A DNA stretch of 64,000 nucleotides, taken from Hyunsoonleella flava. GTDB lineage: Bacteria; Bacteroidota; Bacteroidia; Flavobacteriales; Flavobacteriaceae. The translations under genes were made by a program, and so were the position numbers. The DNA is taken from assembly GCF_004310325.1 (NCBI RefSeq), contig NZ_SIRT01000001.1, positions 558,001 through 622,000 of the forward strand, read 5' to 3'. This document shows positions 3,435-62,531 of this stretch, piece by piece. The first letter of the stretch is position 1, and each line of letters opens with the position of its first letter. The notes beneath the pieces are model-generated. The model made no database searches, was not told the DNA's origin, and saw only the letters and a program-made list of their open reading frames with translations.

Positions 3435-4166
3435 TTAATGCTTTTCAAAAGCTTTAACGCCCGCCTCTACCCTAGTCTTTAAATAATTTTCACGAGGTAC
3501 TATGGGACAGGAATATTTATCATTGTAGGCACAATAAGGATTATAGGCTGAATTAAAGTCTATAATTATGCTATCGCCTTCGGGAATATTCGCATCAATA
3601 TAGCGCCCACCACCATAGCTCTCTAGCCCGTTGGTTTCATCCAAAAAAGGCAGAAATAAATAGTCATCACCTTCTACTACGGCATCCTTACCTTGGTATA
3701 TATTGAGTTGGTGCTGTTTCCCATGGAGCTCAAAGTACAAAATACCGTAAACACGCTCTTCTGAAACACGCTGAGTTGTAGTTTTCATGTTAAACCATTC
3801 AGAGTCTGGAGTTCGCTTTAATTTTGCTGTTACTACATATGACGAATCATATTTGAAGAAATCCAGACCTTCAAACGTCTTAAGGTCTTTCTTTTTTAAT
3901 GGAGATGTTGAAGCATCCTTGTAAAAAGCATTCAGTTCTTTTTGAAATGTTGTCTCTCCTTTTAGTGGACGCTTTTTTTGAGTGCAACTTGTGGCGGTAA
4001 AGACTAATGCAAGTATTATTGAAGCCAGGGTTCTAAACGCTTTTGGCTGGTACGCCCGCGTTAGGGATTGAACGGCGTGTTTGAGCTCCTCGCAGAGAGC
4101 GAGTAGTGAAAGCCCGACCCCTTGTGGGTAACGCCAAAATGCTTGTAATACTTTTGAAACTCTCAT
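3435..4166 (-). CDS. DUF1684 lipoprotein with an in-frame repeat insertion in its signal peptide
   Basis: A 243-residue protein. Residues about 70-243 are a DUF1684 domain, including YGILYFELHGKQ, LFLPFLDETNG, GGRYIDANIPEG and FNSAYNPYCAYNDKYSCP, the conserved C-terminal block. The start is the ATG at 4166; it overlaps the stop of the upstream DUF4252 gene (ATGA), and no ATG, GTG or TTG occurs in frame inside the inserted part. Residues 10-43 are encoded by a copy of the dispersed palindromic repeat. Removing those 34 codons leaves MRVSKVLQA joined to FRTLASIILALVFTATSC, an ordinary lipoprotein signal. Whether the enlarged signal still works is unknown. Confidence 0.8.
   Translation of the reverse strand: MRVSKVLQAFWRYPQGVGLSLLALCEELKHAVQSLTRAYQPKAFRTLASIILALVFTATSCTQKKRPLKGETTFQKELNAFYKDASTSPLKKKDLKTFEGLDFFKYDSSYVVTAKLKRTPDSEWFNMKTTTQRVSEERVYGILYFELHGKQHQLNIYQGKDAVVEGDDYLFLPFLDETNGLESYGGGRYIDANIPEGDSIIIDFNSAYNPYCAYNDKYSCPIVPRENYLKTRVEAGVKAFEKH
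4035..4142 (-). repeat. Palindromic repeat copy A, inside a coding region
   Basis: Read on the minus strand it begins TTTTGGCGTTACCC, carries GGGTCGGGCTTTC, ends CAATCCCTAACGCGGG and then CCAAAA. These blocks recur at 24088, 30302 and 62355. The sequences GCATTT (4142-4137) and GCGTTT (4040-4035) flank it 102 nt apart, a possible imperfect target duplication. It adds exactly 34 sense codons to the DUF1684 gene. Confidence 0.85.
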
Positions 4167-4693
4167 TGGTTTTCTGGGTTGAAGGATGGGTTTATGTTCA
4201 TTTTGTAATGCTGCATTACATCGTTTGAAAAGGCATTAAAAGTATCTTCGTCTGCGAAGGACTTAATTTTTTCTGGATCGAAATTGCCCTGTAAATAATA
4301 TGCGGTGGTTTGGGATGCAGAACTATTGAAAATAATGACATCGGTTACAACAACGCCCGCTTCCCGAACGGAAATAATCCTGGTGTTATCGGGGTCGTTT
4401 TTTCTAAATACATCTAGGTACCCGTTATTGGTTACGGCATTCATTTCTGTGATGAGGCTTTGGCGTTTAACAGCATTTAAGTTGTCGAATTTTATAAACT
4501 TTAGGTCTGAAATATTGCCAATGGAATGTTTTATTTCGGGGGAAAGCGTGCTTAAAACCGATTTCATAAAGTTGGGTACTTGAAACGAGGTAACCCCTAA
4601 ATCTGCTTTGTGGTTATTGTAAAACCCTTGAAAGCTACTGCCGCATGATGTGAGTAAAAACAGTAGGTATATTGCTAAAACTAATCGCTTCAT
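4163..4693 (-). CDS. DUF4252 family lipoprotein
   Basis: A 176-residue protein with a short lipoprotein signal peptide ending LLTSCGSS, so it is expected at a membrane surface. The remainder has the DUF4252 layout: a helical start, then the FIKFDNLNA segment, a central YLDVFRKND strand-turn, and REAGVVVTDVIIFNSS near the end. Function of the family is unknown. It is the first gene of a pair and its stop overlaps the start of the DUF1684 gene, implying translational coupling. Its promoter region contains two copies of AATTTTTATCTAG and lies opposite the leader of the MFS operon. Confidence 0.75.
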   Translation of the reverse strand: MKRLVLAIYLLFLLTSCGSSFQGFYNNHKADLGVTSFQVPNFMKSVLSTLSPEIKHSIGNISDLKFIKFDNLNAVKRQSLITEMNAVTNNGYLDVFRKNDPDNTRIISVREAGVVVTDVIIFNSSASQTTAYYLQGNFDPEKIKSFADEDTFNAFSNDVMQHYKMNINPSFNPENQ

Positions 4694-4697
4694 TTTA

Positions 4698-4742
4698 AAT
4701 TTTTATCTAGGTAAAAATACAATATCCAAAATTTTTATCTAG
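4698..4742. promoter_or_regulatory. Direct repeat AATTTTTATCTAG, possible operator
   Basis: Two identical 13-nt copies at 4698-4710 and 4730-4742, spaced 32 nt start to start, about three helical turns. The second overlaps the candidate -7 box TAGATTTG at 4740-4747. They lie between the divergent DUF4252 and MFS genes. Confidence 0.4.
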
Positions 4743-24068: not shown

Positions 24069-24087
24069 GATAAGTGCAATATTTCTA

Positions 24088-24190
24088 TTTGGGCGTTCCC
24101 CTGCGGGTCAGGCTTTCGGCAGTCGCTCTCTCCTGCGTCGAGGAGCTTCAACAAATGCCTCAATCCCTAACGCGGGTCTCATCCGCTAAA
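24088..24190 (+). repeat. Palindromic repeat copy B
   Basis: It opens TTTGGGCGTTCCCCTGCGGG, has TCAGGCTTTCGG, CGAGGAGCTTCAAC and ends CAATCCCTAACGCGGG. It lies between the convergent kbl and mscL genes. It shares the CGCTCTCT/GAGGAGCT inner part with copy A, so A and B form one subtype. Confidence 0.8.
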
Positions 24191-29563: not shown

Positions 29564-30295
29564 TTATTTAAAAATCATGACCAAGCGTTCCGATGTCTTA
29601 GTACTAAACTTCCGCAATTTATAGTCTCCAAAAATATCCAACAAATGTACACCAGCGGCAGCAAATAACGCCTCAAAATCTGCTAAAGTAAACGCCTTTA
29701 CACGCTCAGTAAAATTAAAAGCCCTACCATCAGTCTCAAAACTAATATCCTTTACGATATAGCCGTTAGCCACATAACGCTTTTGGTAAAACGTAATGCC
29801 ATCCACGGTCTTACTATCTTCAGGCACCAAATTGTCAATTACGTAATCCACATTCATAAAATCAATAACACCAAATCCCGTGGCGTTCAAATCTGCCTTA
29901 ATCGATTTTATGGTATTTAAATTATCCGCGTCATCCTCAAAGTACCCAAAACTCGTAAACAAATTAAACACGGCATCAAACCGCTTTGGGTACGGTTTAC
30001 ACATATCATGCACCTCAAAACGCAACCTATGGTTTTCAAATTGTTTCGCATGCGCAATACTATTCACACTCAAATCAATCCCAGTGACATCATAACCCAA
30101 CTTGTTCAAGTATCGCGAATGGCGCCCCTTACCACAAGCCAAGTCTAAAATAGTGCCACCCTCAGGCAAATTCAAATAGTTGGTTAGGTTATCCATAAAC
30201 ACTTGTGCCTCGGTAGCATCCCTATCTCTATATAAAATGTGGTAATACCGCGTATCAAACCACGATTTAAACCAACTCGATGTATCTTCCGTCAT
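29564..30295 (-). CDS. Class I SAM-dependent methyltransferase
   Basis: A 243-residue cytoplasmic enzyme with Rossmann motif I ILDLACGKGRHSRYL, motif II GYDVTGIDLSV and the acidic post-I loop, and FDAVFNLFTSFGYFED as motif IV. It resembles the group of small-molecule or protein methyltransferases frequently next to other genes without a fixed partner. The substrate is not predictable. A palindromic repeat (copy C) occupies its upstream region, shared with the divergent RNA methyltransferase gene. Confidence 0.85.
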   Translation of the reverse strand: MTEDTSSWFKSWFDTRYYHILYRDRDATEAQVFMDNLTNYLNLPEGGTILDLACGKGRHSRYLNKLGYDVTGIDLSVNSIAHAKQFENHRLRFEVHDMCKPYPKRFDAVFNLFTSFGYFEDDADNLNTIKSIKADLNATGFGVIDFMNVDYVIDNLVPEDSKTVDGITFYQKRYVANGYIVKDISFETDGRAFNFTERVKAFTLADFEALFAAAGVHLLDIFGDYKLRKFSTKTSERLVMIFK

Positions 30296-30301
30296 ATATT
30301 A

Positions 30302-30420
30302 TTTTGGGGGTTACCACGCCTTTGGGCGTGGTCGGGCTTTCCGCTATATCTTTTTGCTATTGTGGCTTCGAGAATCTCAGCCACCGATAACAAAAAGGAT
30401 GCCGCTGCAATCCCTAACCC
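30302..30420 (+). repeat. Palindromic repeat copy C
   Basis: It has a first hairpin CCACGCC-TTTG-GGCGTGG (30314-30331), then GTCGGGCTTTCCGCTATATC. A second long hairpin centres on GTGGCT/AGCCAC with TTTTTG/CAAAAA outer arms, and the element ends GGATGCCGCTGCAATCCC and TAACC. It sits between the divergent methyltransferase genes. Confidence 0.85.
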
Positions 30421-30568
30421 ACTTATTTGCTATGGTCATTTATTTGCCGCAAAATTACACTATTTTTGCAATCTAATAGCTCCACCCGCAATTTCTGAAA
30501 AAAAAGAAATTACGACCTCCCCAAAAGGAAGGTAAAACGGAGCACTTATTAAGACTTGGACGAAAAAT

Positions 30569-34315: not shown

Positions 34316-34640
34316 GAGATTGCTTCGTCCTGCGTACTCGCAATGACGTCTATTTTTTAAACTTCAAAAATATAAATACCAAAACGTTATTACGAGAAGT
34401 GAGGCTCGAACGCCGAATAATCTTATAAGTCTTTTGCCTAATTTTCAAACACTATATCCGCCAATAAAAGAAACAGATTGCTGCACTGCGTTCGCTATGA
34501 CGTTTATTTTTTAAAATTCCAAAATATAAACATCCATGCGTCATTACGAAAGAGACACGACTGAAGTAATCTCATCCCATAAAAAGACAAATTCATAATA
34601 ACACTAGTCAGATTGCTTCGATATCACTCGCAATGACGGG
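34316..34640. repeat. Tandem GATTGCT...ATGACGT / CGTCATTACGA palindromic repeats
   Basis: Two diverged tandem units (34316-34430 and 34471-34578), each of the form AGATTGCT...GCAATGACGT, TATTTTTTAAA, then CGTTATTACGA or CGTCATTACGA and a final AATCT. A third half-unit sits at 34608-34640, ending just before the MBL gene stop. This fills most of the 533-nt gap between the LytTR and MBL genes; nothing else is seen there apart from AT-rich sequence. Confidence 0.75.
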
Positions 34641-61449: not shown

Positions 61450-61637
61450 AAAACCTACATCAGTATAGTGTTTTGTATAAACTCCTTAAAAACAAGTTTA
61501 GGGCTAACAAGCTGATCAAGGGTCTGCCCGAGATACTAGAATTAACCAGCACTAGCAGCATGCTTTTACAACTTCAACTCACCCTTTTTAAAGAATTAAC
61601 GTTGAGTTTATCAAAAAAAATAACCGATGTAGGTAGT
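61450..61637 (-). ncRNA. ssrS: 6S RNA
   Basis: On the minus strand this region starts with CTACCTACATCGGTTA and ends with TATACTGATGTAGG followed by a 7-T run. The two ends pair over 11 bp with one G-U, forming the closing stem. The internal sequence folds as a long imperfect rod with opposing AAGGGTGAGTTGAAGTTG and ATCTCGGGCAGACCC strands around a central unpaired region, as in 6S RNA. The position immediately downstream of zapA is the classical location in proteobacteria and, to my knowledge, Bacteroidota. 6S RNA binds housekeeping RNA polymerase by mimicking an open promoter. Confidence 0.75.
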
Positions 61638-62354: not shown

Positions 62355-62531
62355 TTTTGGGCGTTACCCCAAAGGGGGTCGGGCTTTCCGCTATATCTTT
62401 TCGCGAAGCATCCCAAACTCATTTCAAGATCACATTAATTTTTAAAGCAAATCGTTTCCATTTAAAAATGCATTATTCAAGGTTCGCAAAAAGGATGCCG
62501 CTGCAATCCCTAACGCGGGTCTATCTGCCAA
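62355..62531 (+). repeat. Palindromic repeat copy D
   Basis: It begins TTTTGGGCGTTACCCC, has first hairpin ACCCC-AAAG-GGGGT, then TCGGGCTTTCCGCTATATCT. A roughly 80-nt AT-rich loop insert lies between TTTTCGCGAA and TTCGCAAAAAGGAT, then GCCGCTGCAATCCCTAACGC. It ends CTGCCAA. It fills most of the 419-nt gap between the zapA operon and the M23 gene. Confidence 0.85.

Follow-up and report, generated by a model that had tools for sequence, protein, structure and literature searches.

An in-frame, Flavo-1-type palindromic repeat near the start of a DUF1684 lipoprotein gene in Flavobacteriaceae

The DUF1684 gene pair and its element

The window, i.e., the whole stretch of 64,000 nucleotides that we analysed (contig NZ_SIRT01000001.1, positions 558,001 to 622,000), comes from the 3.81 Mb draft genome of Hyunsoonleella flava, here called G000. 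The other genomes of our genus sample are G001 to G011, and L numbers denote loci; the sample includes Hyunsoonleella aquatilis, H. jejuensis, H. ulvae, Jejuia pallidilutea, and an uncultured Flavobacteriaceae isolate (identical DUF1684 proteins). Two lipoprotein genes lie in tandem on the reverse strand, and the downstream one holds a palindromic element just behind its start codon:

3435..4166 (-): DUF1684 lipoprotein gene, 243 codons, with the element inside in frame (open reading frame; Pfam PF07920, E 2.1e-47)
4164..4166 (-): DUF1684 start codon ATG, which overlaps the DUF4252 stop
4041..4139 (-): palindromic element with Flavo-1-type arms, ends TTTTGG...CCAAAA, read F-W-R-Y-P...Q-S-L-T-R-A-Y-Q-P-K
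4058..4136 (-): core of the element, 79 nt (1 mod 3), open frame, inverted ends GCGTTA/TAACGC
3987..4034 (-): hydrophobic stretch of the signal peptide (residues 45-60), RTLASIILALVFTATS
3984..3986 (-): lipobox Cys codon (C61), the expected first mature residue; the alignment column is invariant in 12 orthologues
4163..4693 (-): DUF4252 lipoprotein gene, the upstream partner of DUF1684 (open reading frame; PF14060, E 1.2e-12)
4712..4719 (-): promoter-like box TATTTTTA, 18 nt before the DUF4252 start and near the flavobacterial -7 consensus

The DUF1684 gene is otherwise intact, as its Pfam match indicates, and the mature part of the protein has relatives of solved structure (2lnu and 2lok). 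A preliminary description of this DNA had reported a repeat copy in frame within the gene, and this is borne out by the open reading frame and by the repeat match at 4041-4139 (-), where TTTTGG (from 4139) and CCAAAA (to 4041) are the element's own ends. Other details of that description had to be revised. It counted 34 added codons and took MRVSKVLQA as the beginning of the old signal peptide; the lipobox Cys is preceded by 60 residues in G000 and by a median of 16 in relatives without the element (76 sequences), so about 44 codons are extra, and the assignment of MRVSKVLQA to the old signal peptide is unsupported. Likewise, GCATTT and GCGTTT, the hexamers flanking the repeat, are unsupported as a target duplication, and other carriers lack them. 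Across carriers the length before the Cys ranges from 57 to 95 residues. As a single strand, the in-gene copy folds somewhat better than its shuffles (z -2.1; 6/200 shuffles equal).

The flavobacterial -7 consensus that the TATTTTTA box approaches is TAnnTTTG, as given in the accessible text of PMC9723704, and the region at the box resembles that upstream of DUF1684 in G008 and G002. A sigma-70 scan of the window returned 5 promoter-like sites against 4.9 expected and is hence uninformative. Elsewhere in the window, a 6S-Flavo RNA (RF01685) was found at 61479-61607 (-) with 99.4 bits.

A dispersed repeat family with Flavo-1 arms

Three further copies of the repeat are intergenic within the window:

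24087..24176 (+): intergenic copy found by BLAST within the window; the orthologous site is empty in G007
30302..30435 (+): intergenic copy with a Flavo-1 hit at 30326-30435 (-); the same site is occupied in G003, G007, and G008
62355..62531 (+): intergenic copy with a Flavo-1 hit at 62373-62526 (-); the site is empty in G008

All three had been named in the preliminary description. BLAST within the window recovers the copies at 24 kb (E 2e-9) and 62 kb (both arms, E 4e-5 and 7e-4), and for the 30 kb copy it aligns only two conserved blocks, each with E 5.5 and not significant alone. The copies at 30326-30435 and 62373-62526 exceed the gathering score of Flavo-1 (RF01705). Among in-gene copies, those of L034, L040, and L042 pass this score, L038 reaches 41.6 against the required 42, and L239 reaches 29.1; the in-gene copy of G000 has no Rfam match at E up to 0.1 and is assigned to Flavo-1 by its arms only. 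Overall, RF01705 was found in 37 of the 60 genomes searched (G000 included), which belong to several families of the order, and in 0/14 control genomes. The family appears in a table row of Weinberg et al. 2010 (PMC2864571), the part of that paper on which we draw, and according to the portion of PMC9723704 that treats it, Flavo-1 hits fall both sense and antisense in transcribed regions, with many outside transcribed regions.

A DNA search of G000 with the element gave at least 42 matches at E up to 10 (with the best 40 of 118 candidate stretches scored), and the best non-self match among those scored shared 99% identity over 78 nt (E 2.3e-33). Among the matches scored, the copy most similar to the in-gene element adjoins a tmRNA gene (RF00023, L002 1078-1471 (-)). 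A profile made from the in-gene peptides, searched at E up to 1, matched at least 93 times in G000, at least 102 times in G005, and at least 92 times in G003; counts were 83 in G010, 58 in G007, 49 in G008, 45 in G009, 41 in G002, and 36 in G001, and matches were sparse in G011 (8), G006 (5), and G004 (4).

Two motifs delimit 55 distinct copies in G000 (57 loci scanned, with four Rfam-hit loci that have no motif pair and the three intergenic window copies set aside). The preliminary description had proposed searching the genome for copies in other coding regions, and a census of open reading frames in all six frames answers this: 52 of the 55 copies share fewer than 30 nt with any open reading frame of at least 100 aa, and the remaining three overlap DUF1684 and two frames with no Pfam match, which leaves DUF1684 as the one convincing host gene. 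Open reading frames that overlap copies at L017, L152, and L173 were considered as in-frame fusions and rejected as spurious, since Pfam (E up to 0.01) matches none of the three; NCBIfam likewise gives nothing for L017 and L173, although the same is true of the DUF1684 protein itself. A genus-wide search in one reading frame of the element pointed the same way, with only eight DUF1684 copies having open frames longer than 170 aa among the rows listed. At the 49 copies with both neighbouring genes called, the neighbours converge in 15 cases, run in one direction in 28, and diverge in 6.

In a consensus hairpin built from 18 aligned copies, each of the six GCGTTA/TAACGC end pairs forms in at least 17 of the 18 copies, two of these pairs show one compensated double change each, and the inner stem shows double changes in six copies, at two pairs. 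Paired end changes were also seen at the intergenic site that is occupied in four species (window positions 30285-30445, L072, L078, and L084), where GCGTTA/TAACGC has become GGGTTA or GGGTTC with TAACCC or TAGCCC.

The 24 kb window copy is absent from G007, the 62 kb copy from G008, and one G003 copy from G008, although gain and loss are not separable at these three sites. No convincing target site duplication was seen beside the in-gene copies or at the empty sites, where the flanks are too diverged for the junctions to be read. A Y1 transposase (RAYT) was rejected as the mobiliser because PF01797 hit counts do not follow copy number (0 hits against at least 92 repeat matches in G003, and 6 against 4 in G004). 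With its terminal inverted repeats, the Flavo-1 element looks like a dispersed, mobile palindrome, and we infer its mobility from this distribution.

Carriers, history, and probable exchange of loops

The in-gene element is present in 11 of 87 distinct DUF1684 orthologues, at the same place and always in frame. Carriers comprise 8 of the 12 genus genomes and 3 of 75 further distinct loci, all three labelled Algibacter (80 loci came from named genomes, of which five repeat genus genomes, namely four carriers and G002, leaving 75). An alignment of orthologues, which the preliminary description had put forward as a check, thus finds the element missing from 4/12 genus genomes and 72/75 further distinct orthologues. 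In all 11 species, exactly 19 residues separate the element's QP (QL in G005) from the lipobox Cys, and the QSLTRAYQP end is nearly constant.

The absence in G002 is probably a loss. In the GyrA tree, G002 is the sister of G007, which has the element (100/100), and the 176-nt start region of DUF1684 in G002 matches the DUF4252 promoter and signal region of G000 at 141 of 166 aligned positions. Based on this match, a deletion or exchange probably gave the gene its neighbour's signal peptide; the DUF1684 gene of G002 (L035, 1498-2100 (-)), with a DUF4252-like promoter and signal peptide and no element, has the appearance of a signal-peptide swap.

Whether the carriers descend from a single insertion is less clear-cut. 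A tree of the mature domain requires six changes for element presence and does not allow all carriers and G002 to form a single clade (AU p 0.002), a result that argues against simple single descent, and the three Algibacter-labelled carriers sit beside non-carriers in this tree. These results would fit several independent insertions at one hot spot, as opposed to one insertion with later exchange. The constant 19 residues to the Cys speak against such repeated insertion, one clade of the genus carriers plus G002 is not rejected on the same tree (p 0.081), and the mature domain itself looks recombined by eye, so we consider several insertions rather unlikely. A DUF4252 tree was unresolved on one descent of all carriers. 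At alignment columns ~150-200, the mature DUF1684 domain occurs in two middle versions (WFNMKTTTxRVSEER and PFxMKTTTDRxPxYxKYGE), whose distribution, compared by eye, departs from the GyrA tree and suggests within-gene recombination.

The apical part of the element differs strongly among carriers. Four loop types, very different in sequence and length, occur within the one gene position: a hairpin type in G000 and, with a different stem sequence, in L213; a short type in G005, G007, and G009; a long type in G001, G003, G008, and G010; and a further type in L214 and L239. Loops also differ at the orthologous intergenic site near 30.3 kb, where G000, G003, and G007 have a long loop and G008 a hairpin between conserved flanks. 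Here core lengths are 115 nt in G000, 157 in G007, 156 in G003, and 78 in G008, and two of the four are not 1 mod 3. The simplest reading is that the loop was probably replaced by gene conversion from other copies with the arms retained. The loops of L034 and L038 (and, more decayed, of L042) contain a second, nested repeat, GTCATTGCGA...TAATGAC, which is likewise in frame and resembles CGTC repeats. Two copies of GTCATTGCGA, with which this nested repeat begins, were found in the window as well, at ~34338-34347 and 34628-34637 (-).

Reading frame, start codon, and relation to known elements

In-gene copies keep their frame far more often than copies elsewhere. All 10 in-gene cores are 1 mod 3 with an open frame, at lengths that range from 64 to 187 nt, compared with 39 of 86 control copies (Fisher p 7e-4), controls that were partly drawn by the in-gene-peptide profile and are thereby biased toward frame-compatible copies; an earlier control set free of profile-derived copies gave 12/39. 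For cores of at least 120 nt the proportions are 4/4 in genes and 2/16 in controls (p 0.003). These counts exclude L214, whose 5' arm is off pattern and which is in frame by translation. As the in-gene copies share ancestry, 10/10 does not represent ten independent events, and the p values overstate independence.

Codon positions tell a similar story for one arm. Of the 218 pairwise differences in the ungapped 3' arm, 116 (53%) fall at codon position 3; the share is 35% in 24 controls that have this tail too, and none of 5000 control draws was as high. Across the full length of the element, codon differences among the in-gene copies are nonsynonymous in 617 cases and synonymous in 178, an excess that limits the coding pattern to the 3' arm; on this evidence, the middle of the element appears to be preserved as a frame, not as a protein sequence. 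That the family had been filtered for translation, as the preliminary description suggested, accordingly holds for the DUF1684 copies and weakly family-wide, given how few G000 copies overlap open reading frames.

Alternatively, the insertion could be adaptive, with a long n-region or an mRNA palindrome altering export, folding time, or the coupling of the two cistrons. Consistent with this, the element is retained in 11 species with its nearly constant end, the nine carriers scored (all save G009 and G010) have 2-3 net positive charges near the hydrophobic stretch, and a Gln codon CAG has its middle base A in 10/10 in-gene copies compared with 4/24 controls. Shared descent alone could fix the Gln, however, the remaining peptide varies freely, and G002, the GyrA sister of G007, does without the element and with a DUF4252-like signal. 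We judge an adaptive role doubtful.

Another possibility is that the element is a 5' leader, with translation starting behind it and the open frame incidental. According to the sections of PMC3733652 on which we rely, REPs placed at a predicted N-terminus may in many cases be extragenic, and N-terminal REP cases are thought often to be untranslated. Among our carriers, inner starts are possible in the long variants of G001, G003, G008, and G010 (an in-frame ATG 31 residues before the Cys) and in G007 and G009 (TTG or ATG 18 residues before it), where a shorter protein form could be made. In G000, however, no in-frame ATG, GTG, or TTG lies between codon 1 and the hydrophobic stretch, in agreement with the preliminary description, and in L213 the sole inner start is a TTG 13 residues before the Cys. 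The frame is also kept in all ten copies, and the upstream start codon matches that of element-free operons. As already described, and as the open reading frame coordinates bear out, the ATG at 4166 in G000 overlaps the upstream stop.

This homology of start codons is visible in the joint between the two genes. A TAATG joint (gap -1) of DUF4252 and DUF1684 is present in the element-free L220, L230, L235, L254, L257, L259, L266, L283, L285, and L288, and equally in the carriers L213, L214, L231, L239, and L241, likewise in G003 and G007. Other carriers have an ATGA overlap (G000) or small gaps (G005 and G010), and element-free loci with an adjacent DUF4252 gene but another joint are L252 (8 nt), L264 (23 nt), and L292 (2 nt); L228, L272, and L273 are outside this count, as they were not called by the open reading frame rule. 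At the G008 locus (L234) no DUF4252 frame was seen upstream of DUF1684, and a region like the DUF4252 promoter (90/108 nt identical to that of G000) lies immediately upstream of the ATG ahead of the element. Because the TAATG joint is common to carriers and element-free operons, the ATG ahead of the element is most likely the original start codon, behind which the element lies, and we regard an untranslated leader as improbable. That the repeat family arose from the DUF1684 gene, whose copy is complete at both ends, hardly needs consideration, as the stretch occurs in only 11/87 orthologues while RF01705 is spread over 37/60 genomes of several families of the order, and no outgroup orthologue was seen with the stretch in a repeat-free genome.

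The explanation that we hold with good confidence is that a mobile palindrome with Flavo-1 arms inserted just behind the DUF1684 start, in a flavobacterial ancestor or with spread to lineages by exchange, and that the original start codon overlapping the DUF4252 stop was retained. With that upstream start in place, ribosomes would translate the palindrome and so produce a signal peptide extended by ~40-80 residues, whose positive charges would stand next to the hydrophobic stretch. A Sec-exported lipoprotein needs positive charge in its n-region, and signal peptidase II cuts it at the lipobox Cys. Here the peptidase would cut the unchanged lipobox, the peptide encoded by the element would be discarded with the signal, and the mature lipoprotein would be the same as in element-free species. 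Since translation would begin upstream, only frame-keeping, stop-free variants would survive; and because cleavage would remove the whole element-encoded peptide, a frame-keeping insertion would be harmless and only its frame retained, with loops exchanged under this filter. A selfish palindrome may thus persist in a gene at little cost, in the lipoprotein part that is expected to be cut off.

A broader reading, which we offer tentatively, is that Flavo-1 is a modular mobile palindrome and not an sRNA, with loop cassettes swapped within a live DUF1684 frame whose product is discarded. The apical loop would be a cassette, exchanged by gene conversion across the conserved arms throughout the life of a multi-species lineage. 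Any cassette would be tolerated if it kept the frame, because its product would be lost with the signal peptide, and selection would admit only such frame-keeping cassettes. One accepted cassette would be that with the nested second palindromic repeat (G003 and G008; decayed in G001). The question bears on the true nature of Flavo-1, an abundant orphan "RNA family" of Bacteroidota.

Several known systems share features with this element. Flavo-1 itself has the same arms, and both window copies and in-gene copies (L034, L040, and L042) pass its gathering score. Rfam, however, files the family as an sRNA gene, whereas the in-gene copy is part of a coding frame that runs on the other strand from the Rfam model, and in G000 its loop differs to the point of giving no Rfam match; a Flavo-1 annotation can evidently fall within a coding gene, which calls for caution. 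Miniature inverted-repeat elements (MITEs), as characterised in the consulted part of PMC10969869 and in general descriptions, are likewise short, with inverted ends, no transposase, many copies, and empty sites, but for the Flavo-1 element no target duplication was found.

Among REPs, GTAG/CGTC repeats are described in the available sections of PMC3733652 as occurring within open reading frames, some NH2-terminal and sometimes in a single gene per species, and CGTC repeats have been reported from Bacteroidetes too. They resemble our case as small palindromes within a frame, whereas the Flavo-1 element exceeds them in length and, inspected by eye, shows no GTAG/CGTC tag at its ends. For disputed N-terminal REP insertions, the combination of frame, codon position, and start-codon homology provides an evolutionary test, and the present case adds evolutionary evidence, drawn from sequence comparison, of N-terminal read-through.

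Rickettsia palindromic elements (RPE) are a further parallel, one that had been proposed in the preliminary description. In the portion of PMC10969869 at hand, they are palindromes of ~100-150 nt found in frame in many host genes, with 44 integrations in R. conorii. The parallel is supported by orthologues lacking the element, by copies elsewhere in the genome, and by a frame that is always kept within an otherwise intact gene, a likeness of kind only. The difference is that RPE occupy many genes, whereas here a single gene is host and the peptide lies in a stretch expected to be cleaved. A search of titles and abstract openings, with subscription literature mostly outside its scope, found no such in-frame palindrome in a signal peptide. 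In-frame palindromic elements within genes are already known from the Rickettsia elements and the GTAG/CGTC REPs; what is new here is the Flavo-1 family, the site in an N-terminal signal peptide, and the frame-preserving exchange of loops.
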